A stretch of 58,664 nt of DNA from Bacillus multifaciens (GTDB lineage Bacteria; Bacillota; Bacilli; Bacillales; Bacillaceae_G). The position numbers were made by a program, and so were the translations under genes. This document shows, one piece after another, positions 2,888-57,421 of the stretch. The stretch's first letter is position 1; each line of letters starts with the position of its first letter. The notes beneath the pieces were generated by a model, which worked only from the letters and a program-made list of their open reading frames with translations, ran no database searches and had not been told where the DNA came from. The stretch is taken from positions 1-58,664 of the forward strand of contig NZ_JAVBXD010000033.1 in the NCBI RefSeq assembly GCF_030756675.1. The letters run 5' to 3'.

Positions 2888-3354
2888 TTTGAATCCCCTC
2901 GCTGCTTTTGTAATACAGACTTTACAGCTTCTTCAATCTCTTGATAACTCGTGCAACGGCAAATGTTAGAACTTAACCATTCTTCGATGACGCGATCATC
3001 TGCATCAGGCCTTTGTGACACAAGTCCTTGGCAATTCATAATAAATCCCGGTGTACAGTATCCGCATTGGAAAGCCCATTTTTCTTCAAAGGCTTGTTGA
3101 ATCGGAGCTGATTGTAACCCCTCAATCGTTGTAATTTGCTTTCCAATCGCTTCAACAGCTAACATAATACAAGACTTAATTGGTGTCCCTTCAACAAGAA
3201 CAGTACAAGCACCGCAATCACCATTTTCACAGCCTGGCTTTGCTCCGGTTAAATCCAATTCATGACGTAATATATGTAATAGTGTATCAGCCATTCTTCC
3301 AACTACCTCTCGCGTTTCTCCATTGACATCCAAAATGAGCTGCACGTTCCTCAT
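2884..3354 (-). CDS. Xanthine dehydrogenase-type 2Fe-2S subunit (PucE-like)
   Basis: A 156-residue small subunit of a molybdenum hydroxylase. The plant-type 2Fe-2S domain has GCENGDCGACTV with a further cysteine in PIKSCIM. The C-terminal 2Fe-2S helical domain has FQCGYCTPGF and SSNICRCTSYQ. All eight cluster cysteines are present, so it should pass electrons from the molybdenum site to the FAD subunit. The ATG overlaps the stop of the FAD subunit gene (ATGA). The length is typical of XdhC, CoxS and PucE type subunits. Confidence 0.92.
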   Translation of the reverse strand: MRNVQLILDVNGETREVVGRMADTLLHILRHELDLTGAKPGCENGDCGACTVLVEGTPIKSCIMLAVEAIGKQITTIEGLQSAPIQQAFEEKWAFQCGYCTPGFIMNCQGLVSQRPDADDRVIEEWLSSNICRCTSYQEIEEAVKSVLQKQRGDSK

Positions 3355-46684: not shown

Positions 46685-46723
46685 AAAAAAGCGTCCCCTA
46701 CTGTTTGAAGTAAGGAACGCTTA
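46685..46723 (-). terminator. Second hairpin beyond the original tRNA-array end
   Basis: AAGCGTTCCTTAC / GTAGGGGACGCTT stem with T run on the minus strand, about 90 nt past attL in the chromosome. Confidence 0.65.
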
Positions 46724-46773
46724 TAAACGTCGATATTACGCTATTTCTTTGAATAACTTTCGATAAATAAACA

Positions 46774-46795
46774 TAAAAAAACGAGTTAATCTCGT
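46774..46795 (-). terminator. Original terminator of the tRNA array, now displaced
   Basis: ACGAG / CTCGT stem and seven T on the minus strand, 7 bp beyond attL. Before integration it would have lain just after tRNA-Leu. The 10.4-kb insertion separates it from the array. Confidence 0.7.
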
Positions 46796-46801
46796 CTAAA
46801 C

Positions 46802-46856
46802 AGTACCGATGGTCGGGGTCGAACCGACACTCCAGAAGGAACACGATTTTGAGTCG
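46802..46856. other. attL: duplicated 3' half of tRNA-Leu
   Basis: 55 bp identical to 57248-57302, covering the anticodon loop to the 3' end of tRNA-Leu. It has no 5' half, so it is not a functional tRNA. It marks the distal end of the integrated element. Confidence 0.92.
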
Positions 46857-47145
46857 GTTATGGAATTTAATCCTCCCCACAAACCATCGAAAACATTGAT
46901 ATATAAATGTTCTTAGCGTTCGAATTTAATTTAACTTAAAATTATCACATACGACTACCTTGCAATTAAGTATATTTCGTTTAAATCGCTTAGTCAAGTT
47001 GAGGATATCGACATAAAACGAGTTTCTTCCTATTATATAAATGCATACATTATTTAATATGGCTTCGCCCTACTCAAGACGAACAAACCACTATTTCAAA
47101 AATAAAAAGAGAGTTACTTTATAAAATTCCTTTCTCTCAATAAAA

Positions 47146-47898
47146 CTATAAATTACTTTTTATAGCTGGACTTACAAGTTCAAAAAAATCAATTATATTT
47201 TCACCAAATTTAGTAATCTTCGTATCTTTTTCATACTCATGTCGATGAAATTGATCTTGATTAAGTTGCTTACCTATAAATTCAGCTAACTCCTTATTTG
47301 TTTTAATTAAAGGAGTAGTAATTAAGCCTAAATTTTCTAATCTATTTTCAATATAAGTATTATATGCTTCTTGTTCATAATGCTCTTGCTTTTCCACTTC
47401 TGTACTTGGAATTTCAAATGGAAATACAGGTGCCTTACCTTCCATTCTTAATTTAAATTTATACTTTCTATAATCTGGCGTTAGTTCAACTAACCTTTTA
47501 ATTTCGTCTAATCTTAACTCTCTTAGTAAATCACAATAAGCAATAATACGATCTTCATTTTTAAATTCTCTTTCAATAATATTTTCAAAACCATTAAAAA
47601 GAAATTCAACTTTTTCATCCTGCGCATCATTCATTATGTCTTCTAAAATAATAGGAAATGCCTTTTGTTTAAGAAATTCAGTAAATGCAGCATCCTTTCC
47701 CTTTATTTTATTTTCAATAACTCCAAGACGTTCTCGATGTTCTTCTAAACGTTTTTTCAAACGATTTATTCGATGTGAAGTAATCGCTCCACTTATATAA
47801 GGTGCAACACTTCCAATGTTATCAAAAACTAATTCAATATTACTTCCTTCTTCAATTCCTAATAGATTTTTTACTGATTCAACTACATCAAATTTCAT
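47146..47898 (-). CDS. Unknown coiled-coil protein of the element
   Basis: A 250-residue protein I do not recognise with certainty. After an N-terminal acidic helix there is a short hydrophobic segment (NIGSVAPYISGAI), then a basic coiled coil (RINRLKKRLEEHRERLGVIE). A helical domain follows (EDRIIAYCDLLRELRLDEIKR), and the C-terminus has a TKITKFGENIIDFFELV tail. The layout recalls DUF4393/Abi-like proteins of phages and defence islands, but this is a resemblance only. GGAGG precedes ATG 47898. It lies downstream of the winged-helix-like gene at 47975, separated by a weak hairpin. Confidence 0.65.
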   Translation of the reverse strand: MKFDVVESVKNLLGIEEGSNIELVFDNIGSVAPYISGAITSHRINRLKKRLEEHRERLGVIENKIKGKDAAFTEFLKQKAFPIILEDIMNDAQDEKVEFLFNGFENIIEREFKNEDRIIAYCDLLRELRLDEIKRLVELTPDYRKYKFKLRMEGKAPVFPFEIPSTEVEKQEHYEQEAYNTYIENRLENLGLITTPLIKTNKELAEFIGKQLNQDQFHRHEYEKDTKITKFGENIIDFFELVSPAIKSNL

Positions 47899-47939
47899 TT
47901 TCTGTTCCTCCTTGTAAAAGAATAACAATTTCTTTTCAT

Positions 47940-47972
47940 AGATAAAGCACCCTAAATAAAGAGTGCCTTTAA
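47940..47972 (-). terminator. Weak hairpin between two element genes
   Basis: GCACTCT / AGGGTGC with one wobble pair, then TTT. It may attenuate transcription into the coiled-coil gene. Confidence 0.4.
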
Positions 47973-47974
47973 AA

Positions 47975-48229
47975 TTAACTATTCTCCACTGTATCAATAC
48001 CATAAGAAGTGATCTTAGCCATGTATTTATCTTTAGAAAAAGATTTATATTCAATCAATCCCTTGTCATTTAAATATTCATAAGCTACATGTTTTTCTTT
48101 ATCCTCTTCAGACACGTACACATCAAGATAAATATATAGTGCTTCTCCCCCACTTTTTAAATGATAATCATAAAGTTCTTTTAATAAATTTTCTCTTAAA
48201 GTTTTTCTCTTATTTAAAGTTAAAGACAT
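47975..48229 (-). CDS. Small winged-helix-like protein of the element
   Basis: An 84-residue protein: MSLTLNKRKTLRENLLKELY, then YEYLNDKGLIEYKSFSKDKY and AKITSYGIDTVEN. The alternation of helices and a C-terminal beta wing with ITSYGID is typical of small winged-helix DNA-binding proteins in Firmicute mobile elements. The start is ATG 48229, with AAGGGAG upstream. It could regulate the coiled-coil gene that follows. Confidence 0.65.
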   Translation of the reverse strand: MSLTLNKRKTLRENLLKELYDYHLKSGGEALYIYLDVYVSEEDKEKHVAYEYLNDKGLIEYKSFSKDKYMAKITSYGIDTVENS

Positions 48230-48360
48230 AAAAATTACTCCCTTCTTTTTATGAATAAAGCTAATTAACAATCTATTTAAACCCGATATGCTTGTACAAT
48301 TTATAATAATGATTGATACATATTCACAATAAAAAATTTTATATTAAAGCAATTAAGCTA

Positions 48361-48498
48361 TTATTTCTTTCCTTTTGCTTGTGCTAAGACAGAAGCAGCA
48401 AGACTTTTTGTTAATTTACTAGTACTCTTACTTTGCAATGCTTTTGAAGCCTTAGAAGCCATAGTTGAACTAGATACTTTCTTTGAACCCTTCGCCAT
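48361..48498 (-). CDS. 45-residue Ser/Lys/Ala-rich protein
   Basis: Reads MAKGSKKVSSSTMASKASKA, then LQSKSTSKLTKSLAASVLAQAKGKK in two repetitive blocks. It is strongly basic, with low complexity and alternating S-K and A-S runs. GAAGGTG lies 7 nt before the ATG. I cannot name the family. The basic composition suggests nucleic-acid binding, but this is a guess. Confidence 0.65.
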   Translation of the reverse strand: MAKGSKKVSSSTMASKASKALQSKSTSKLTKSLAASVLAQAKGKK

Positions 48499-48685
48499 AT
48501 ATTCACCTTCTTTCTATTGGGAATTTTTTCTTCACTACATATTGTATTACTTTTTAAAAAAGGACACAAGATATATGTGTAATTTCTTTCTTTTTTAAAA
48601 TTTATTTTTTCGATAAAAAAGGTTGGTCTTTTTACAATACAAATAAAAAAAAGCACTTCACAAGGAAATGCTAATGTTAGAATTT

Positions 48686-49285
48686 TTATTGATTACCTTG
48701 TTTGTTCTGTTTATGGTAATCTTCAATAATTTTCAAGTTTTCTTTAGCCTTACTTGTCCACTCGTCTAAGTATTTATAAAAATCACCTAAAGAATCCTTT
48801 GCTTTATAATAAGAATTTACCCAATTAGTAGCTTCTTCATTTGAAACTTGTTGTCCTAAATTAGGTTGTTTATCTATAAAGTCTTTCCAATCTTTCAAAG
48901 TTAAGCTATATCTAAGATACATCTCTTTTCTAGCTTGAGGCGGTTCAATATTATTAGCTTCATCAATCAGTAGTCCGATATTAGTCATTGAAACTTTTAA
49001 CTTATTTAAATCTTTTTCGTTTCCATCAAAAAAACCTTTTACTTCATTTACGTTTTTGATAAATTCATTTGCATGTACATTCATCCACTTATCAAATGAC
49101 TGCACATCTTTCATCACATGAGTTTCTTTTTCCATTGGTGCTGAATTTTGATTCTGTGTTTCTGATGTACTTTTTTCTTGTTGTTCGTTTCCTTTATCTT
49201 TTACTTTTTCATTTGATGAAGTTGTTTCTTTACTACATGCAGAAATAAGAAGAATTGCAGATAACAATAAAAACAATCGTTTCAC
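48686..49285 (-). CDS. Lipoprotein of the element
   Basis: A 199-residue predicted lipoprotein: signal peptide KRLFLLLSAILLISAC with a lipobox ending at Cys17. A Ser/Glu/Gln-rich linker follows, then a helical domain (SFDKWMNVHANEFIKNVNEV, MYLRYSLTLKDWKDFID and DFYKYLDEWTSKAKENLKI). It is anchored on the outer face of the membrane. Lipoproteins on mobile elements can act in superinfection exclusion, but nothing here proves it. The function is unknown. Confidence 0.8.
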   Translation of the reverse strand: MKRLFLLLSAILLISACSKETTSSNEKVKDKGNEQQEKSTSETQNQNSAPMEKETHVMKDVQSFDKWMNVHANEFIKNVNEVKGFFDGNEKDLNKLKVSMTNIGLLIDEANNIEPPQARKEMYLRYSLTLKDWKDFIDKQPNLGQQVSNEEATNWVNSYYKAKDSLGDFYKYLDEWTSKAKENLKIIEDYHKQNKQGNQ

Positions 49286-49782
49286 TAACTGATTCCCCCT
49301 TTTAAAATTCTCCCTGTGAAATATGTTGGCCTCCTACCGCCCGTTTTTCACATTTCAATTGTTCAGAAAGTAAACCACCCCACCCCTATATTCTCCTATC
49401 ATTGGAAGGGGTTGGCAAGATTTTTTTAACATATGAACTCATTCACTTTATTCTTTATGTCAGATTCATTCATAATCCTTTTCTATTGGTTAATGAATAC
49501 CACTATGTATGAAACCAATTACCGCACGAAACAAGCAGATTTGAACCGTCATTAGCTTACTTCATGCCCTTTCCGATACAACAAGGGAAAGCATACTACA
49601 CCATTGGCATTTCAATAAAATTCCTTAACTATACACACGCTTATAAGTACACATCTAATATAAATCATGTTGGATCAGTAGCAATTCACCATGTATATAT
49701 AGACACCAACTAAAACAGTACGTTTCATAATTACACATGTTACTCGAATAAATACAGGGCGTTTTAGCTGCTTCATATCTAA
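49286..49782. other. Gene-free region of the element with inverted repeats
   Basis: No gene is visible. It contains CCACCCCACCCC...AGGGGTTGG at 49378-49432 followed by seven T (a possible plus-strand terminator), and one copy of the CCCTT-loop-AAGGG hairpin at 49564. Confidence 0.45.
49564..49590 (+). repeat. Element hairpin motif, copy 1
   Basis: ATGCCCTTTCCGATACAACAAGGG-type hairpin: stem CCCTT / AAGGG with loop CCGATACAAC. It is conserved with 53470, and a looser version is at 53606. Confidence 0.55.
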
Positions 49783-49898
49783 CTATCATTTATGAACTAT
49801 CATATAAGTGTACCCATTTGATAGCAACTTGATATGTGATTGTATCAACGTTCATCAACTATCATTTACATCTATCATAATTAATGATACACTATCAA
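49783..49898. promoter_or_regulatory. CTATCAT repeat array, possible res/operator site
   Basis: CTATCAT occurs at 49783, 49797, 49859 and 49872, with CTATCAA at 49892 and an inverted TTGATAG at 49818. They lie in pairs just upstream of the serine recombinase gene, as resolvase binding subsites do. It could equally be an operator for the recombinase promoter. Confidence 0.55.
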
Positions 49899-49938
49899 TA
49901 AGACTTGATGATTCATTTACGATAGGAGATGATTGTAT

Positions 49939-50514
49939 ATGATGTACGGATACGCACGAGTAAGCAGTACTGACCAACACCTAGACACGCAGCTAGAAGC
50001 ACTAAAGCAATATGGAGTAGACGAGATAATATCAGAGAAGATAAGTGGAGTATCAAAGAAGAAAGAACAACTTGATGAGTTACTTAATAAATTAGAATCT
50101 GAAGATGTGCTTGTCGTTACCCGTATGGATAGATTAGGAAGGAACACATTGCAGTTATTGGAATTAGTCGAGCAGTTAGAACGGAAGAAGGTACACCTTG
50201 TAATAATGGACATGAGCATAGACACCCGTACAGCAACAGGAAAGTTCTTTCTAACTATCATGGCTGGATTCAGTGAATTAGATAGAACAATGATTAAAGA
50301 GAAGCAACGAGCAGGGATTGAATTAGCTAAGCAGAAAGGCAAATACAAAGGTAGACCTAAACGATATACAGAGAACAATCCTAATATCAATCAAGCAATG
50401 GAATGGTACGAACAAGGCGATAAGACAGTAAAAGAAATTAGCAATTTGTTAGGGATTGGTGAAGCTACAATTTATCGAGAAGTTAAAAGAAGAGGGATCA
50501 CAAGAAGCGTCTAA
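49939..50514 (+). CDS. Serine recombinase (resolvase/invertase family)
   Basis: A 191-residue small serine recombinase. The catalytic N-terminal domain has YGYARVSSTDQHLDTQ (nucleophile serine), VTRMDRLGRNTLQL and ELDRTMIKEKQRAGIELAK. The C-terminal helix-turn-helix (VKEISNLLGIGEATIYREVK) binds DNA. Its length fits resolvases and invertases, not large integrases. I use ATG 49939, about 10 nt after AGGAG. It may resolve multimers of the excised element or invert a segment. The CTATCAT array upstream is the likely binding site. Confidence 0.9.
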   Translation: MMYGYARVSSTDQHLDTQLEALKQYGVDEIISEKISGVSKKKEQLDELLNKLESEDVLVVTRMDRLGRNTLQLLELVEQLERKKVHLVIMDMSIDTRTATGKFFLTIMAGFSELDRTMIKEKQRAGIELAKQKGKYKGRPKRYTENNPNINQAMEWYEQGDKTVKEISNLLGIGEATIYREVKRRGITRSV

Positions 50515-50543
50515 TCAAATGAAGATTAGGCGTTTTTATTTTT
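50508..50543 (+). terminator. Terminator after the serine recombinase gene
   Basis: CGTCTAAT / ATTAGGCG stem overlapping the stop, followed by T-rich sequence. Confidence 0.8.
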
Positions 50544-50937
50544 GTGGTTTATTTCGATTCTTACGTTTTATTTTTACACCACAACATAACTACACCTACA
50601 TTTATTTACGAATTAACGTACACAAACATAAGTATTAACATGTCACAAGTTGCTGACCACTTTCATTCCCCGGATTAAGAATAATTCTTTACCTCGTTAA
50701 ACACTTCATTATTTACATTTCATATCCGTAAGTAACGTGAGAAACAAGCCTATTTTATTGGTATTAATGAATATAGAAGTAGGAAATTAGCACCTATTTC
50801 GAAATAAAATTAGTCGATTTCTAGTTGTTGTTAGTGCAACTTAAAACAATTCTAACAAATAACCGATATGTTTTTCAAATGTGTCAGCTTCATTTGAATG
50901 GACATTGAAGTAAAACCTTCCGTTTTTTTATTTGCAA
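50544..50937. other. Gene-free region of the element
   Basis: No gene is visible. It contains small hairpins (GTTG...CAAC at about 50826 and CTTCATTTGAATGG...) but nothing I can name. An origin or transfer site is possible. Confidence 0.35.
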
Positions 50938-50972
50938 CGCCCTGTATCAAACAAGGTACAGGGTAATTTTTT
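50938..50972 (+). terminator. Plus-strand terminator in the gene-free region
   Basis: GCCCTGTA / TACAGGG stem followed by six T. No gene ends nearby, so a short noncoding transcript from the left is possible. Confidence 0.7.
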
Positions 50973-51084
50973 AAATGTCTTTAACCGTAAGTAAAACGAG
51001 CATTAAGTTTTGTTTCTTACTGAAAATACGCTGAACGAATATGACAATTAAATTGTCGTTACACCTAATATTGACGCCAATTTT

Positions 51085-51115
51085 ATTCGATATAGACGCT
51101 CGATAACGCTCGAAT
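51085..51115. promoter_or_regulatory. Inverted and direct repeats upstream of the small operon
   Basis: ATTCGA / TCGAAT inverted repeat enclosing two direct copies of ACGCTCGA at 51096 and 51106. It lies about 110 nt before the 51225 gene and is a candidate operator. Confidence 0.5.
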
Positions 51116-51224
51116 ATGATATGTCGACTGCTTACGTTAAAAACAAGTTTCATATTTAAGAAATTTACAAGGTATCAATACATTATTGAATTATAGAAAT
51201 TGGTAATCGAAAGGAATGGTAACT

Positions 51225-51512
51225 ATGCAAACAAGAATTTTTCATACTGCTGATCTAACATTAGCTGCTGCACTTTCAACAATTAAAGGCGCTAAACTTG
51301 GTCACGTTACGGTAACACGAAAAGGTGATGATGGTTATTTAGTTACATTTGAAATTGCGTATAAGGAAAATTCACATACTGAAATTAATGACATGATTGA
51401 ACGATATAAAGCAAATACATTACAACTAAACGTTAGATCACTAAGTTCACAATTAGCTTATTGTCGTTATTTATTCAGTCTTAAAACAAGACAATATCAA
51501 AATCAAATGTAA
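51225..51512 (+). CDS. Small protein resembling DUF5659
   Basis: A 95-residue protein: MQTRIFHTADLTLAAALSTI, then YLVTFEIAYKENSHTEINDM and YCRYLFSLKTRQ. The pattern (TADLxLAxAL at the start, a central beta strand pair, then R-x-L/F-x-x-L) recalls DUF5659 of Bacillus phages and plasmids. The function is unknown. I start at ATG 51225, with AAAGGA 10 nt upstream. The ATG at 51216 abuts that site. It is the first gene of a three-gene unit. Confidence 0.7.
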   Translation: MQTRIFHTADLTLAAALSTIKGAKLGHVTVTRKGDDGYLVTFEIAYKENSHTEINDMIERYKANTLQLNVRSLSSQLAYCRYLFSLKTRQYQNQM

Positions 51513-51528
51513 TGAAAGGACGTAAAAG

Positions 51529-51957
51529 ATGATTGTACTACTTGTAGATAATGATCAAATTAAAAATGTATCCACACATATAACAAAGATTAAAAGTTCT
51601 CCTGTTGTATGTTCTTTTGAAAATCAAAAAGCAGGAACTAAAGAAAAAATTATATTCGCTTCTGATTTTGAATTACTAATGTTAGAAGATGGTACAGATT
51701 ATAAAAATATGAATATAAACGAAATTCGTGCTATCGCTAAAATGAAACAAGAATTTGCAATTAAATCCAAGACAGAACAGCTTGAAGATTTGCATGTATA
51801 CATTGACGAATTAAAAAAACAGATACAGATACAAAGAGCCATGCGTGAGGAACTTATGTCTAAGACACGCGTTCAACTTGGACTTCTTTTAGAGAAAATT
51901 TTTGAGAAAAAGGCTACTGATAAATTAAATCAAAATGAAAGTGAGGTGAAGAACTAG
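51529..51957 (+). CDS. Unknown coiled-coil protein
   Basis: A 142-residue protein. The N-terminal half is beta-rich (MIVLLVDNDQIKNVS and EKIIFASDFELLMLED). The C-terminal half is a coiled coil (EQLEDLHVYIDELKKQIQIQ). AAAGGA precedes the ATG. Its stop overlaps the start of the RepL-like gene by one base, so the two are translationally coupled and may act together. Confidence 0.7.
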   Translation: MIVLLVDNDQIKNVSTHITKIKSSPVVCSFENQKAGTKEKIIFASDFELLMLEDGTDYKNMNINEIRAIAKMKQEFAIKSKTEQLEDLHVYIDELKKQIQIQRAMREELMSKTRVQLGLLLEKIFEKKATDKLNQNESEVKN

Positions 51958-52778
51958 TGCCCAGAATAGTTCATTTAGTCGATAAGGAAACAGGACAAAT
52001 ATTGGGTGAAGATATTATTAATCCCAAATCACAAGTAATATCTGAAGATCAAAAACAAGCATATAAGAACAAATTAGAAAAGGAAAGAGATAACCGCCAT
52101 TTCAGTTTTGCGGATATGGAGAATATTAAAGAAGTGATTTCTAAATTAACAAATATTCACCTTGGATATTTATTACAATTACAGTGTCATATGGAATTCG
52201 GAACAGGGTTTTTAATTGGAAAGGATGGGGCGGTTATGACTAAGAAAGTGGATATTGAACATACATTAGGTATTACAAATAGTACTAATAAACGTTTATG
52301 TAAAGCACTTGAAAGTAATGGGATTTTGGAAGAGGTTAAAGGTGGATACTGTATTAATCCTACTTATCACTTTAGAGGACAAGTTCAAGAACAAAAGATA
52401 ATCAAACTATTTACTACAACATTAAAGCAGCTATGCAAAGCATTAAAACCTGCTGAAATTGGATTCTTATATAAGTTACTTCCATATGTTCATTATGAAA
52501 CTAACATGATTTGTATTAATCCTCATGAAATTGATCCTAAGGAAATTAAGTACCTTAATATAGAAGCAATCGCACAAATTACTGAAATCCATCAAAAGAA
52601 AATATCCCCTCTTCTTAGAGGTTTAAGAAAAGGTGGAGTAATTGCAGAAACAACATTGGAAGATAAACGCCATACTTTCATCACATTAAATCCGTATATC
52701 TTTTATAGAAAAAGTGGACAACCTGATAATACATTACGAGGTATGTTTGCTGCTTCACCATATGCTCCAAAAAAATAG
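51957..52778 (+). CDS. RepL-like winged-helix protein (possible replication initiator)
   Basis: A 273-residue protein. The N-terminus has VHLVDKETGQILGEDI. Two winged-helix parts follow: residues ~80-130 (VDIEHTLGITNSTNKRLCKA) and ~190-250 (LNIEAIAQITEIHQKKISPL). The C-terminus, FITLNPYIFYRKSGQPD then NTLRGMF, matches the NPYIFYRG-type ending of Firmicute RepL/MarR-like plasmid and phage replication proteins. The start is GTG 51957, with GAGGTGA upstream. It may initiate replication of the excised element. That is inferred. Confidence 0.65.
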   Translation: MPRIVHLVDKETGQILGEDIINPKSQVISEDQKQAYKNKLEKERDNRHFSFADMENIKEVISKLTNIHLGYLLQLQCHMEFGTGFLIGKDGAVMTKKVDIEHTLGITNSTNKRLCKALESNGILEEVKGGYCINPTYHFRGQVQEQKIIKLFTTTLKQLCKALKPAEIGFLYKLLPYVHYETNMICINPHEIDPKEIKYLNIEAIAQITEIHQKKISPLLRGLRKGGVIAETTLEDKRHTFITLNPYIFYRKSGQPDNTLRGMFAASPYAPKK

Positions 52779-52825
52779 GTAACTTTTTTGACCCTTTTTT
52801 GCTTGAATAGGTAACTTTTTTGACC
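52775..52825 (+). repeat. 19-bp direct repeat at the end of the RepL-like gene
   Basis: ATAGGTAACTTTTTTGACC occurs at 52775-52793 and 52807-52825. The first copy contains the gene's stop codon. Two exact copies 32 bp apart may be iterons or a site for the RepL-like protein. Confidence 0.75.
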
Positions 52826-53097
52826 TGTTTCAAATCACGCTCAATCCGTTGTGACAGTAAGTCTGAACGTTGTTTTGGGCGTTAATTTCTTCTTATATCT
52901 TTAATAAATATTAACTTTGCACATAGTTACATTTACATAGATTTAAATTGCAGTAGTTTATTAATTTCGGTAAAAATTACCGTTATACATAGATTGCTTA
53001 TTATACATCTTCAAGCGCCAGATAGGCTTAGTATTTCACTAACGTTCGTACATATACTTGATAAAAATTTGAGTGGTAAAGAAAGGAATGTTAATTG
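52826..53097. other. Gene-free region after the RepL-like gene
   Basis: No gene is visible. The sequence is AT-rich with short inverted repeats (e.g. ACGTTGTTTTGGGCGTT), compatible with an origin but not diagnostic. Confidence 0.35.
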
Positions 53098-53265
53098 ATG
53101 AGTGTGTTTTTTATTGTACTAACAATTGCTTTGGAACTGTTTATGATTCGCTTTTTTATAAAGCAAATTAAAAGATACGATTTAAAAATAAAACAGTGGG
53201 AAGAGGTGAAAAAACTTTATGAAAAAGAAACGTATGAATCGAATGGAATTTATCAACAAGGTTAA
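53098..53265 (+). CDS. 55-residue single-span membrane protein
   Basis: One N-terminal hydrophobic helix (SVFFIVLTIALELFMIRFFI), then a charged helical tail (KQIKRYDLKIKQWEEVKKLY) ending YQQG. AAAGGA lies 10 nt before the ATG. It overlaps the next gene by 47 nt in another frame, so the two may be coupled. The topology resembles phage spanin or holin-like small proteins, but no specific family is evident. Confidence 0.65.
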   Translation: MSVFFIVLTIALELFMIRFFIKQIKRYDLKIKQWEEVKKLYEKETYESNGIYQQG

Positions 53266-53458
53266 CGTTATTGTTCGTGGTAACTATGCGCATAATAATG
53301 AACCTATTTCATTTAGTGAAGTTGCAGAATATCTTAGTACAACATCTGATAATTTGCGACTAAAGAAACAAGACACTGATCTAATGAATGAATTAAAGCG
53401 ACATGGCATTGTTGTAAAACTAATCGGTAATATGAATTACTTTGTCTTTGAAAATTAA
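53219..53458 (+). CDS. Small HTH-like protein of the element
   Basis: A 79-residue protein: MNRMEFINKVNVIVRGNYAH, then SFSEVAEYLSTTSDNLRLKK and LKRHGIVVKLIGNMNYFVFE. A helix-turn-helix followed by a beta wing is likely, so it is probably a small DNA-binding regulator. GAGGTG lies 10 nt before the ATG, inside the preceding overlapping gene. Confidence 0.65.
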   Translation: MKKKRMNRMEFINKVNVIVRGNYAHNNEPISFSEVAEYLSTTSDNLRLKKQDTDLMNELKRHGIVVKLIGNMNYFVFEN

Positions 53459-53469
53459 TCAATGTACAT

Positions 53470-53494
53470 AATGCCCTTGCCGATACAACAGGGT
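53470..53494 (+). repeat. Element hairpin motif, copy 2
   Basis: ATGCCCTTGCCGATACAACAGGG-type hairpin, stem CCCT / AGGG. The loop CCGATACAAC is identical to the copy at 49564. Confidence 0.55.
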
Positions 53495-53605
53495 TGAGAT
53501 TAGAAGGTACTGTTAGATAAGAATAGCAGTAAACTTCCCCTTCTGTCTTGTTGGCTAGGGCGAGTACAAAGCAAATAGATGAATAAAGTTAATTAACTAT
53601 GAGAA

Positions 53606-53630
53606 TGCCCTTACCAACAAGAAAATGGTT
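53606..53630 (+). repeat. Element hairpin motif, copy 3 (looser)
   Basis: ATGCCCTTACCAACAAGAAAATGG, a variant lacking GATA in the loop, 57 nt before the 53663 gene. Confidence 0.4.
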
Positions 53631-53662
53631 GAACTTACTTCAAACGAAAGGAACGATTATTA

Positions 53663-54094
53663 ATGAGTATTTTATCAAGGTGGTACAATGAGCAAGGAAA
53701 TTTATCAAAACAGGAAACTGCTTCTGTTAAGGGAGATAGTATTTTATCTAAGTTAATGGACAGTGATAGTAATGAAATTGCTTCAACAAGAATGAAACGG
53801 AGTAGTAGTCCATTAGCAAAATTAAAATTTGCAGAGATCAATCAGCATAAAAATGAATATGCTCACCTTTTTGAAACTGCTGAGAACTCTAATAGCGAAA
53901 TATTTAACACTTCTAAAGAGGAACTAAAGAGCGAATACAAGGAAAAATTGCTTGATATATATAAAACGAATGGCATTACTGAATTGCTACGTAAAGATAA
54001 AAATAAGAAAGTTATAAATTTCGAAGAACTTCAATACTTAATTGAATTTAGAACAGATTTTCCAAACATGACATTAGAACAATTGGAGGGTTAA
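53663..54094 (+). CDS. Unknown hydrophilic protein of the element
   Basis: A 143-residue, charged, largely helical protein: SILSRWYNEQGNLSKQETAS, KLKFAEINQHKNEYAHLFE and a C-terminal FEELQYLIEFRTDFPNMTLE. No catalytic motif or membrane segment is visible. AAAGGA precedes the ATG. It ends 4 nt before the next gene, so both belong to one operon. Confidence 0.7.
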   Translation: MSILSRWYNEQGNLSKQETASVKGDSILSKLMDSDSNEIASTRMKRSSSPLAKLKFAEINQHKNEYAHLFETAENSNSEIFNTSKEELKSEYKEKLLDIYKTNGITELLRKDKNKKVINFEELQYLIEFRTDFPNMTLEQLEG

Positions 54095-54098
54095 ACAC

Positions 54099-54452
54099 AT
54101 GAATTATACAATGAGAGATATGAAAAAAGTAAAGGCTTTATTTGGTCAAGATTTTGATATGAATAGTTACATGAACACAAAGTCGGACTTTTCTTGTATG
54201 AACTCCACAATGATAGCCAAAGGGTTAGCGAATTACATTAAAAAGTATTATCGCTTCGAACATTATCCAGCAAATTTTAAAGGAACCGTTTATGATTTAA
54301 AGTACTTTGCAAAAGAAGCTATGTTAGATTTACATCAAATTTGTAAGATTTTTGAATCAGAAGAAAGGTTAGCAGAACTTAAAGAAGAATTGAAGAAGAA
54401 CAACATTAAGTTAACTGTTACTTCTAGAACAATTAAATTAGAGGAATTTTAA
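54099..54452 (+). CDS. Unknown small protein of the element
   Basis: A 117-residue protein: MNYTMRDMKKVKALFGQDFD, MIAKGLANYIKKYYRFEHYP, AMLDLHQICKIFESEERLAE. It is helical, with a basic C-terminus. GGAGGG precedes the ATG within the end of the upstream gene. The function is unknown. It is co-transcribed with the 53663 gene and followed by a good terminator. Confidence 0.7.
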   Translation: MNYTMRDMKKVKALFGQDFDMNSYMNTKSDFSCMNSTMIAKGLANYIKKYYRFEHYPANFKGTVYDLKYFAKEAMLDLHQICKIFESEERLAELKEELKKNNIKLTVTSRTIKLEEF

Positions 54453-54486
54453 GAGGTGTGTCCGTTCGTGGACATGCCTTTTTTAT
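54453..54486 (+). terminator. Terminator after the two-gene unit
   Basis: GGTGTGTCC / GGACATGCC stem with a 6-nt loop and six T. Confidence 0.85.
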
Positions 54487-54561
54487 TATTAAGTAGGTAC
54501 TAACCCCCATCCTTGTAATTACTTAACGTAAAATTGCGTTTAATAAAGTCAACACTACAAT

Positions 54562-55284
54562 CTAAATTTCTTTCTGTTCTTGAATCCACTTTTCAGCACG
54601 AGCAACCGGATCAGCAATCATATAAGAACTTAAACTACGATTCTTTAATTCTTGTTCCATACGGTTGAATTCATCAATGTACATCATTTTAAATTTCATA
54701 GCTTCCGATCCTGTGAAACCCATTACCAGCAAGGTAAAACCATCTTTTGTTAAATTATATTTCTTGTATTTACGTCCATTACCTACTTCATAATAGGATT
54801 CCCCAAAATTGGGTTTTCCTTTTTCTTTTAATTCTTCCATGATTTTTTCAATATCTCTAATCACATGATCGTGTCGCTTATTGAAAACTTCACCAACTTT
54901 TAAACTATCTGTTACTACCTCGTTATTTTCGATAAATACGATGTTATTCATATTACGAATATCTTTCAAAATCTCTTTAACTTGTTTCTTAAATTGTTTT
55001 GCGATTGGTTTTCGTGATTGCATTAATACCTCATAAAGACCGTCTTCAGTTAAGAACCACATTTCACGATTTTGACCTGAGGTAAATAATCTTGCCACCA
55101 GCTTTTCGTCTTCATCAACTGTATTTAACATCATATTTACATTTCTTGTACCTTTTTCTTTATCCTTAAAAGCGTAATCAATCCAAACGGCAACGTCTTT
55201 AGCTAAGAATAAAGGTTCTTCCTTTGATCCATAAATTTTAAATTGATTACCTAAAACTTCTTGGTTTCCTCCGGGGGTACTCAC
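54562..55284 (-). CDS. Phage-type antirepressor (BRO-N plus Rha-like)
   Basis: A 240-residue two-domain antirepressor. The N-terminal BRO-N domain (~1-110) has PLFLAKDVAVWIDYAF and REMWFLTEDGLYEVLMQSRK. The C-terminal Rha-type domain (~115-225) has SLKVGEVFNKRHDHVIRDIE and NLTKDGFTLLVMGFTGSEAM. Such proteins inactivate phage repressors or control lysogeny. I accept the GTG start at 55284, with AAAGGA 10 nt upstream. It is coupled to a possible 8-codon leader (MKMKRILI) with its own AGGAGG, whose TAG overlaps the GTG. Confidence 0.87.
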   Translation of the reverse strand: MSTPGGNQEVLGNQFKIYGSKEEPLFLAKDVAVWIDYAFKDKEKGTRNVNMMLNTVDEDEKLVARLFTSGQNREMWFLTEDGLYEVLMQSRKPIAKQFKKQVKEILKDIRNMNNIVFIENNEVVTDSLKVGEVFNKRHDHVIRDIEKIMEELKEKGKPNFGESYYEVGNGRKYKKYNLTKDGFTLLVMGFTGSEAMKFKMMYIDEFNRMEQELKNRSLSSYMIADPVARAEKWIQEQKEI

Positions 55285-55311
55285 TAAATGAGTATCCTTT
55301 TCATCTTCATT
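55285..55311 (-). other. Possible leader peptide before the antirepressor
   Basis: ATG at about 55309 encodes MKMKRILI and stops at a TAG that overlaps the antirepressor GTG (TAGTG). AGGAGG stands directly upstream. A short translated leader of this kind could couple or limit antirepressor translation. Confidence 0.35.
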
Positions 55312-55436
55312 CCTCCTATATGTAACTCTAACCGCTTCTGTTTCGGCAAAGGCTACTTCTAAGTTAATTAATGTACTAACCTTCTTGATCTCATTCGTTA
55401 TTACTTAGTTCCATATTTAACTTAGAGTAATTTTTA

Positions 55437-55465
55437 ATGACATTTCATAATTAACTTTGATAAAA
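55437..55465 (+). promoter_or_regulatory. Candidate promoter of the large noncoding RNA
   Basis: ATGACA at 55437 and ATAAAA at 55460, spaced 17 nt, on the plus strand, facing the structured gene-free region. The -10 match is modest. Confidence 0.4.
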
Positions 55466-55471
55466 CGTATT

Positions 55472-56118
55472 GACTTCAGCTATCCGTCCTTCATCATGGG
55501 ATGAGTGGAAAGGACAACGGCTAGGGCAGAGAATGACTACCTTACATTGCAAAAACAAGAAAGTTAATGCAACATAAAGCAGACGTTCATTGTCACTCCA
55601 TCATGGTCTATCGGGTTAAGGAATCCGTATAGTAACACCTTGTTTGAACGCTAGATTTTCACCTACAACGAACTTTTAACAAGTAATGCTTGTCCTACTT
55701 GCTGAAAGATTTAGGGAAGGAATTGTACTGCTGACATATACTTAATTACTCGTAACCTAATGTTATCTTTCTTGTTCGTTGCTACCTGTATCGCAATACA
55801 CCAAGCAACCTTTACCAAACCGTTTATGGACGTTCTCTCCTAGACTCCTAACAACGCAAACAAGGAAACGTTATATGTTAGGACGCTTAACTTTATGACG
55901 TTGGCTTAGCTAACCTGTTCAAGTTTTTAGCGTGGTGTTAGGTCATTCCCACATTCGGAAATTCCTGTACACACCTCTTAAAAAAGACAATAGGAAACTA
56001 AACCTTTGCATTATACTTTTTAAAAATTTATAATGAAGGTAATGAATGTACGGAATGTTCCTATATTCAATTGTGCTTTGATTTTCGGTCACCTATTGCA
56101 GTAGGTGGCTTTTTTCTT
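55472..56118 (+). ncRNA. Candidate large structured noncoding RNA, about 650 nt
   Basis: No gene lies here on either strand, yet the sequence is dense in long stems. They are: CCGTCCTT / AAGGACAACGG (55485-55520); GTTGCT / AGCAAC enclosing TGTAT / ATACA with CGCA loop (55778-55809); CCTAACA / TGTTAGG with ACG / CGT (55847-55882); ACGCT-T-AACTT / AAGTT-TTT-AGCGT enclosing GTTGGC / GCTAAC (55883-55933); ACCTT-CATTATA / TATAATG-AAGGT (56002-56040); and GAAT-GGAA / TTCC-ATTC (56044-56067). A plus-strand terminator closes it at 56088-56118. It is larger than typical riboswitches, recalling phage-associated RNAs such as GOLLD or ROOL. I do not recognise the specific family. Confidence 0.55.
56088..56118 (+). 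terminator. Terminator of the noncoding RNA
   Basis: CACCTA / TAGGTG stem with a 6-nt loop and a T-rich run on the plus strand only. No plus-strand gene precedes it for over 1.6 kb. Confidence 0.8.
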
Positions 56119-56120
56119 TT

Positions 56121-57098
56121 TTAGTACTTTTTAAACATCTTCAATGGTGAAAAATCTTTGTGCTTCTCTTTCACATCATTGCTAAATAAATTTACATACG
56201 TTCTAACCATGTCCATTGTGGTATGCCCAAGTATCTGTTGCAGTTCAAAAATCCCTGCACCATTTTGAACACTAAGTTTTGCGAATGTATGTCTAAACGT
56301 ATGAGGACTACAACGAACGTCTTTTACCTTTGCCATTTCCCCATATTTGCTAATTCGATTTTGTAATTGTCGTTTTGTCATTGGACGATTATCAATTGAT
56401 ATAAACAAAAAATCTGTTTCAACTGATCCCCGAATAGTGACGTATTTCTTTAATACCTCTTTCATGTATGCTTGAATTGGTACTAATCGTTCTTTATATC
56501 CCTTTGTATTTCGAATATGAACAAATGAATCTTCCCATTTAATATCAGTAATTGTTATTCCAACAAGTTCATTTGCTCGTATACCTGTTTCTAATAAGAG
56601 CAGCATGACCGTATAATCACGAAAACCTATAAAAGTAGTTAAATTAGGTTGCTTTAATAAATTTTTTATTTGCTCTTTGCTAAATGTCGGAATGGCTTGT
56701 CTTCTTACACGCAGAAATTTAACGTCTTTCATTGGATTAGACTTAATGTATCTTTCAGTATGAAGAAAGTTAAAGAACGCCCTAATGGCTCTTAAACGTG
56801 TATTAATCGTGATTGGCTTTCTTTGTAAAATTTCTTTCATATAAAAAATAACGTTCTTTTTAATTACATCACTTGTAATTTCAGTTGGATTTGTGGATAT
56901 GGATTGATCCATAAGGAGTTTATAAAACGTGGTTAATTCACTCCTATAATAACGAATGGTATGGTCACGCAAGTTGCGTAACTCACAATCATTGAGGAAT
57001 AGATGTAGAGCAGTTTTGTAGTCAAGTACGTCTAATTGTACAGAATCGTGAATAACTGCTAATTCTTTAACGTTTAATTCATTGTTACGTCTTGTCAT
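56121..57098 (-). CDS. Tyrosine-type integrase of the element
   Basis: A 325-residue XerC/D-like recombinase. The N-terminal SAM-like core-binding domain (YKTALHLFLNDCELRNLRDH) is followed by the catalytic domain. Catalytic residues are Arg in ETGIRANELVGI, Lys in RNTKGYKERLVP, His and Arg in SPHTFRHTFAKL, His in ILGHTTMDMV, and the nucleophile Tyr in RTYVNLF. AAGGAGG precedes the ATG. It lies 150 bp from tRNA-Leu, so it is the enzyme that integrated the element there. No excisionase is obvious, though the small HTH-like proteins could serve. Confidence 0.93.
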   Translation of the reverse strand: MTRRNNELNVKELAVIHDSVQLDVLDYKTALHLFLNDCELRNLRDHTIRYYRSELTTFYKLLMDQSISTNPTEITSDVIKKNVIFYMKEILQRKPITINTRLRAIRAFFNFLHTERYIKSNPMKDVKFLRVRRQAIPTFSKEQIKNLLKQPNLTTFIGFRDYTVMLLLLETGIRANELVGITITDIKWEDSFVHIRNTKGYKERLVPIQAYMKEVLKKYVTIRGSVETDFLFISIDNRPMTKRQLQNRISKYGEMAKVKDVRCSPHTFRHTFAKLSVQNGAGIFELQQILGHTTMDMVRTYVNLFSNDVKEKHKDFSPLKMFKKY

Positions 57099-57184
57099 AG
57101 CAATGATTTACCTCCTTCTTGAATATGATTCATGACGCTTATTTAACAAGGAGATAATCGTATGTAGTTAACTATTTAAGAACA

Positions 57185-57221
57185 CAAAAAACGGCTCTCA
57201 CTGAACGTAAGAACCGTTATA
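57185..57221 (-). terminator. Element-supplied terminator for the tRNA array
   Basis: AACGGTTCT / AGAGCCGTT (with wobble pairs) and six T on the minus strand, 29 bp past the end of tRNA-Leu and inside the element. It replaces the displaced chromosomal terminator at 46774. Confidence 0.7.
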
Positions 57222-57247
57222 ATATCAATATTTATGTAACTCTTTTG

Positions 57248-57302
57248 AGTACCGATGGTCGGGGTCGAACCGACACTCCAGAAGGAACACGATTTTGAGT
57301 CG
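57248..57302. other. attR: repeat in the intact tRNA-Leu
   Basis: 55 bp identical to 46802-46856. Crossover within it leaves a complete tRNA-Leu beside the integrase. Confidence 0.92.
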
Positions 57303-57331
57303 TGCGCGTCTGCCAATTCCGCCACATCGGC
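57250..57331 (-). tRNA. tRNA-Leu(CAA)
   Basis: Acceptor GCCGATG, anticodon loop CTCAAAA, long variable arm as in Leu tRNAs. CCA is not encoded. The 3' half comes from the element's attachment site. Confidence 0.93.
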
Positions 57332-57337
57332 AAAATA

Positions 57338-57411
<74 letters not shown>

Positions 57412-57421
57412 ATATTAAATT

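Follow-up and report, generated by a model that had tools for sequence, protein, structure and literature searches.

A large structured RNA of about 605 nucleotides (nt), almost certainly real and very probably read on the minus strand, lies between the genes for a Rha/Bro regulator and a tyrosine integrase in an element at a leucine transfer RNA (tRNA) gene of Bacillus multifaciens. The window, that is the whole stretch of DNA analysed, comprises positions 1-58,664 of contig NZ_JAVBXD010000033.1 of this organism. Comparison among relatives has shown, at the level of sequence, a fold that is conserved and has a pseudoknot in its core, GNRA tetraloops, a minus-strand origin, a usual genomic place and an exchange of neighbouring genes. 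The full interpretation offered here, which we regard as moderately probable, is that of a structured minus-strand RNA of roughly 600 nt on the 3' side of an integrase gene, which would be processed, act alone in trans in the manner of the large RNAs GOLLD and ROOL, and constitute a portable module. The RNA is not in Rfam, a statement made with near certainty: only 15 tRNA matches of the whole window reached the gathering score in Rfam 15, no family exceeded it over the region on either strand, and a scan of the region at E values up to 5 returned three weak matches below gathering, the best being PyrR with 27.7 bits (gathering 54). Rfam scans of the relatives likewise gave none for the RNA; above gathering were only tRNAs and the 5S ribosomal RNA of locus L032. 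Within the scope of Rfam 15 and one open literature library the family is apparently undescribed. The initial annotation of the window had proposed that an element at tRNA-Leu encodes a large, ornate noncoding RNA in a region with no reading frame, and this description largely held: the region folds better than its shuffles, relatives carry compensatory changes, repeats of 55 base pairs (bp) lie at tRNA-Leu, and the 836 bases between the Rha/Bro and integrase genes contain a single listed open reading frame (ORF) of at least 40 amino acids, with a length of 49.

Conserved fold and strand of the RNA

In single-sequence folding both strands performed better than 20 shuffles (plus strand z -2.89, minus strand z -3.89), and the minus-strand fold of the window had -157.6 kcal/mol. 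Two covariance models of the core, both built without the window, recovered the core domain in it, R1 with 45.7 bits (E 2.4e-9 in 288 kb) and the minus-strand model R2 with 48.6 bits (E 1.8e-11). Among seven core sequences, window excluded, 92.5 % of the cells were paired, compared to 74.7 % in shuffled and 27-44 % in slid alignments. Sixty-six sequences, selected from 76 sources by a match threshold of E 1e-7, presented 89.7 % paired cells in the core (62.9 % shuffled) and a covariation of 0.628 (0.158 shuffled, at most 0.074 slid). The minus-strand model matched 88 of 94 sources, and the resulting 86 distinct rows reached 91.2 % paired cells (61.0 % shuffled), a covariation of 0.720 (0.174 shuffled, at most 0.086 slid) and double changes in 27 of 29 pairs. 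These core alignments were fitted to nested helices. The first pseudoknot helix, left out of every model, was paired in 89.8 % of the cells in the 66 and in 91.9 % in the 86 sequences, with double changes in three of its four pairs. The two-tier hairpin belongs to the best-covarying parts of the family, its inner helix being 100 % paired in the 86-sequence alignment; the third core hairpin was paired in 93.4 % (66 sequences) and 93.5 % (86 sequences). When analysed at full length, 19 of the 21 sequences of Lysinibacillus type (the landmark was missing from L081 and L087) yielded 132 pairs, 90.9 % paired versus 81.7 % in shuffles (highest 82.7), and 54 pairs with double changes versus 28.9 (highest 38). 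Mostly-gap columns were removed before consensus folding in the whole-length and strand analyses.

Three stems had been named in the initial annotation. Those at 55778-55809 and 55847-55882 are present in the minus-strand fold of the window and agree with the family fold, and the latter is the well-covarying two-tier hairpin. The stem at 55883-55933 forms in the best fold of the window, but the family has a shorter hairpin at its place (Table 1). The exact 5' block is absent from many family members. In the 5' domain of the window, an A-run (AAAAAAG) and a U-run (CTTTTT), both within 55981-56020, are kept in many members; the two could pair or form a triplex.

Wobble pairs, hairpin loops and fold stability bear on the strand. 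The core alignment of the 66 sequences had 53 A-C mismatches, equivalent to G-U on the other strand, versus 24 G-U pairs, and a pair-by-pair inspection located this excess mainly in the two-tier hairpin. Four subgroups refolded without wobbles (53 of 76 sequences, only pairs at least 70 % Watson-Crick) gave 212 wobbles on the minus versus 84 on the plus strand, and every subgroup showed this bias. Of 76 sequences, 54 had a GNRA-capped hairpin with at least five pairs on the minus strand (12.1 expected) and 7 had one on the plus strand (8.4 expected); the GNRA loop is kept while the stems vary (e.g., GCGAC-GAAA-GTCGC, TGTTC-GAGA-GAACG). The minus strand folded more stably in 73 of 76 sequences and, after shuffle correction of 38 of the 76, in 32 of 38. 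The relatives are not independent of each other, thus the P values of the wobble and GNRA counts overstate. Together, wobbles, GNRA loops and stability argue for the minus strand, and a plus-strand reading of the folded RNA, as given in the initial annotation, was rejected on the same three grounds. The promoter and terminator suggested there consequently face in the direction opposite to the RNA.

Table 1 Features of the RNA and of its host element in the window
Feature	Position	Strand	Basis or remark
Large structured RNA, ~605 nt	55470-56074	-	Conserved blocks in relatives; ends placed by conservation
RNA ends	5' end near 56074 (ACAATTGAATA); 3' end near 55470 (AGTCAA)	-	Predicted from conservation
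Core domain: H-type pseudoknot, two-tier hairpin and further hairpin	55814-55925	-	R1 and R2 matches, covariation
Pseudoknot	55817-55840	-	AAC 55818-55820 with GTT 55832-55834; GGA 55828-55830 with TCC 55838-55840 (plus letters)
Two-tier hairpin CCTAACA...TGTTAGG with the conserved AAACAAGGAAA inside (plus letters)	55847-55882	-	Covariation, window fold
Third core hairpin of the family	55883-55911 (about)	-	Weakly formed in the window
Hairpin GTTGCTTGGTGTATTGCGATACAGGTAGCAAC (minus letters)	55778-55809	-	Window fold; similar hairpin in relatives by eye
Hairpin TAGGT-GAAA-ATCTA (minus letters), GNRA tetraloop	55652-55665	-	Window fold, GNRA survey
5' domain: most conserved block (GGTTTAGTTTCCTATTGTCTTTTTT on minus) and AT-rich hairpin	55976-56036	-	
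Intrinsic terminator facing the integrase	56087-56110, or to 56120	+	Would end an antisense (plus) transcript
Promoter-like TTTGCA-18-TATAAT	56005-56034	+	10/12 matches
Promoter-like TTGACT-16-CATCAT	55470-55497	+	9/12 matches; at RNA 3' end, pointing antisense through the RNA
Host element	46802-57302	.	10.45 kb between exact 55-bp direct repeats 46802-46856 and 57248-57302
tRNA-Leu(CAA)	57249-57331		Right repeat 57248-57302 = tRNA end
Tyrosine integrase	56121-57098	-	Directly upstream of the RNA, same strand

Relatives and genomic context

A BLAST search against phage records gave no match to the region, and five Paenibacillus plasmids matched only over 32-61 nt, at 55976-56036; for the two plasmids looked at, no gene is listed in this stretch. 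Used as a pattern, the 5' block matched 10 viral contigs of IMG/VR and 23 genome stretches, namely from Bacillales and relatives, from one Clostridium and, as a chance match, from a Bacteroidales coding sequence. Conservation in the flanks of the block matches spans about 600 bases, beyond the block alone. Family members were found in Bacillales, in IMG/VR viral contigs and in a Clostridium genus. In the two orders sampled, R1 had matches in 42 of 397 and in 52 of 261 genomes, up to three per genome, and model R3 matched 8 of 299 genomes of a class sample. In a separate sample of the class Clostridia 1 of 291 genomes matched, and in the genus of C. acidisoli 3 of 5. Searches over more than 40 genomes were run with stricter filters, thus these genome counts are lower bounds. 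None of 149 genomes of the Paenibacillus order matched, a group in which no positive control exists. Locus L008 was matched by neither R1 nor R2 and was placed through sequence alignment. L031 escaped R2 but was recovered by both R1 and R3. Rows dropped before the alignments were a chance match in coding DNA (L024), two loci with the 5' block only (L001, L017) and copies of the same contig (L015, L029, L033, L034 and later duplicate fetches).

Four Paenibacillus loci with the 5' block (L002, L022, L025, L030) were unmatched by R1 and R2, and the genomes of the last three also by R3. Because the core models fail on them, these loci represent either a diverged branch or have the block alone in common with the family. 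A different, GC-richer stretch, by eye similar among the four, adjoins their 5' block, and the Paenibacillus branch is possibly a sister family. On a Paenibacillus larvae plasmid (L001) the 5' block occurs twice in tandem, at about 2870-2950 and 3000-3070 between a primase and a ParM gene, with one of the copies degenerate. No core RNA was seen next to them; the 5' block may also function alone.

The gene context was evaluated on 91 unique loci, after removal of five duplicates from 96 fetched loci, which reduced the DUF-linked loci from 20 to 15. On the 5' side of the RNA was an integrase gene in 59 loci, a DUF1659-DUF2922-(YvrJ) operon in 15 and, by these queries, neither in 17, a few of which end with the contig (e.g., L007, L010). 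The recognised 5'-side gene was on the strand of the RNA in 74 of 74 unique loci, and among the longest 5'-side neighbours Pfam Phage_integrase was identified in 54 of 74. The far (3') side was mixed: 68 neighbours belonged to 54 families, with the longest ORF on the strand of the RNA in 48 of 68. Seven genomes have a syntenic copy of the RNA behind the DUF1659-DUF2922-YvrJ operon, and in these the 5' side gave no match to an integrase. The DUF-operon loci with the RNA are L101-L104, L106-L109, L112, L114 and L116-L120; DUF2922 is present two to four times in some genomes, where not every copy is followed by the RNA (e.g., one of two in G072). DUF2922 was present in 97 of 101 sampled genomes, and a general link to the RNA was dismissed, as the RNA was at only one of the 30 best-scoring DUF2922 loci, a few of which are incomplete.

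Among the alternatives, the best placed, at a low probability, takes the RNA as a partner of the integrase in integration or excision, be it a cofactor, a guide or an RNA linked to the attachment (att) sites. The same-strand integrase genes upstream of the RNA in the 59 loci would fit such a role, but 32 of the 91 loci are without recognised integrase, among them the 15 with the DUF operon, and the sequence distances of integrases and RNAs do not correlate (rho -0.086, n=47; 909 of 999 permutations as high). In the window, the RNA has no 12-mer in common with the att regions 46701-46960 or 57101-57420, only one 11-mer. With neither a guide sequence in the window nor coevolution with the integrase, RNA-guided targeting or recombination was rejected. 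Since the two distances are uncorrelated, the RNA has the appearance of a portable module and not of a dedicated integrase partner; on balance, it is probably not dedicated to the integrase.

The integrase of the window (Pfam PF00589, E 1.5e-35) adjoins tRNA-Leu, and the Rha/Bro gene (54562-55284, minus strand) is on the opposite flank of the RNA region. Besides these two, the element contains a resolvase and a RepL-like gene, the latter at 51957-52778 and weakly matched (E 4.8e-5) by RepL, a family of plasmid replication proteins. Because of this match, the element may replicate once excised.

Transcription, plus-strand signals and competing readings

The RNA would be made as the tail of the upstream integrase or DUF-operon transcript, and cutting or trimming of this transcript would leave a stable RNA. 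Co-transcription with the integrase is likely. In the viral branch, the RNA would perhaps originate from its own promoter. A perfect palindrome, TACGTGAATTCACGTA, was seen by eye at the RNA start of L003 and L005-L008, after a TATAAT-, TTTAAT- or TTAAT-like box; box and palindrome are perhaps a promoter with operator. Once released, the RNA would work alone in trans as a compact RNA or ribonucleoprotein (RNP), similarly to GOLLD and ROOL, during activity of the element or phage. At other times its level would be held down by an antisense transcript from the plus strand that stops at the conserved terminator, and such an antisense unit would, besides lowering the RNA, also shield the integrase.

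The plus-strand signals differ with the neighbourhood of the RNA. The intrinsic terminator described in the initial annotation is present, and a plus-strand terminator just beyond the 5' end of the RNA was found in 41 of 59 integrase-linked loci versus 2.4 expected, none being found on the minus strand. DUF-linked loci had it in 5 of 20 cases (1.0 expected; 3 of the 15 unique loci) and other loci in 3 of 16 (0.2 expected); among the 15 unique DUF-linked loci, five showed imperfect hairpins with a T-run here. A plus-strand TTGAC near the 3' end of the RNA occurred in 37 of 58 integrase-linked loci (15.1 expected in shuffles), in 12 of 17 other loci (4.3) and in 3 of 20 DUF-linked loci (8.0; 3 of the 15 unique). 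The promoter formerly placed at 55437 was not among the seven sites of a promoter scan of the region, for which 13.0 were expected by chance; the nearest site was 55470-55497. Across the relatives, promoter-like boxes scored barely above shuffles (mean 8.97 vs 7.98, n=76). The promoter-like sequence at 56005-56034 and the terminator could together give rise to a ~75-nt antisense RNA directed at the 5' end of the RNA. We infer from these signals an antisense unit, most marked with an integrase upstream; a plus transcript with some other use would also account for them.

A sense-antisense control as in ColE1 RNA II/RNA I, in which the minus-strand RNA primes replication and a short plus-strand RNA (~56041-56116) inhibits it, is improbable. 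The layout, a long structured RNA with a short promoter-terminator unit against its 5' end, resembles that of ColE1, and a RepL-like gene is present on the element. However, the antisense parts were not found in many relatives, the terminator being mostly absent in DUF-linked and other loci, the promoter-like boxes exceed shuffles only slightly, and no origin turned up, although none was searched for. Even less probable is that the functional RNA is the plus transcript itself, from 55470 to the terminator at 56110. The frequent terminators and TTGAC boxes of integrase-linked loci support it; wobbles, GNRA loops and stability favour the minus strand, as does the consistent orientation of the recognised 5'-side genes, and both signals are rare in the unique DUF-linked loci. 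Selection on a folded single-stranded minus DNA, e.g., a single-strand origin, is highly improbable: the location on mobile elements would suit it and both covariation and G-T asymmetry are blind to RNA versus DNA, but the length, the pseudoknot and the GNRA loops are features usual for RNA, and the copies 3' of the DUF1659-DUF2922-YvrJ operon were kept in synteny in seven genomes.

Several observations weigh against the full interpretation offered here. The plus-strand signals are strong in integrase-linked loci and directly explicable by a plus transcript. No consistent minus-strand promoter was apparent in relatives by eye, a systematic search not having been made, and a terminator after the 3' end of the RNA was found in only 2 of 75. 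The minus-strand core model outscored the plus-strand model in only 31 of 49 non-seed members, a mild preference. In the 66-sequence core, neither further pair types (70 vs 71.0 shuffled) nor pairs with double change (25 vs 22.3 shuffled, reached by 23 of 500 shuffles) were clearly above shuffles. The third core hairpin alone has only -2.4 kcal/mol in the window and mismatches in the covariance-model match; the best fold of the window pairs 55884-55887 with 55929-55932 and 55889-55893 with 55921-55925 instead. Covariation, finally, cannot exclude a folded minus-strand DNA.

Relation to known large RNAs

The initial annotation had considered a new member of GOLLD or ROOL or a new class. GOLLD (RF02032) was not among the matches at E values up to 5 in the window region nor in eight relatives; a direct search gave at best 18.3 bits versus a cut-off of 150, and 5 of 14 control genomes also matched. 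ROOL (RF03087) was absent from the Rfam-scan matches of window and relatives, and a direct search with the 574-position model gave no match, though no control genome matched either. Neither model reached its gathering score, membership is not supported and the RNA is consequently filed with neither; with no match in Rfam, the new class fits better. A closed RNA-only multimer would be expected of a GOLLD member and an RNA-only octamer of a ROOL member. A similar particle is a tentative possibility for the RNA described here. According to PMC12286853, GOLLD and ROOL are large and ornate, belong to phages and prophages and occur near tRNA islands, the function of GOLLD is not established, and two of the very large structured RNAs of bacteria have lately been found to assemble into cages of RNA alone. 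Like our RNA, ROOL is large, has pseudoknots, occurs in phages and prophages and is without a known protein partner (PMC12286853). However, the context of ROOL there is tRNA islands (PMC12286853), whereas our RNA is located on the 3' side of an integrase or DUF operon. OLE is another large ornate bacterial RNA, with an example of 577 nt (PMC12286853). OLE was absent from the Rfam matches of the window and of the relatives. Omega-RNA and HEARO-type RNAs are structured RNAs beside nucleases. The likeness is a structured RNA beside the gene of a mobile-element enzyme, but the enzyme here is a tyrosine recombinase and the RNA does not follow the integrase lineage.

Within the large ornate RNAs of mobile elements, the RNA would be a new class. 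Because it sits behind unrelated integrases, viral genes and a small-protein operon, its own RNA particle or RNP would be what spreads. The wider proposal, a new class of large pseudoknotted RNA in about a tenth to a fifth of the sampled genomes of two orders that would spread as a self-standing module, we hold to be evenly balanced. Few structured RNAs of very large size are known from bacteria, and their roles are not settled. A family that is common in Lysinibacillus- and Bacillus-like hosts, with a covarying core, a regular context and integrase-free syntenic copies, would offer an easier experimental handle on what large RNAs do and why mobile elements carry them.
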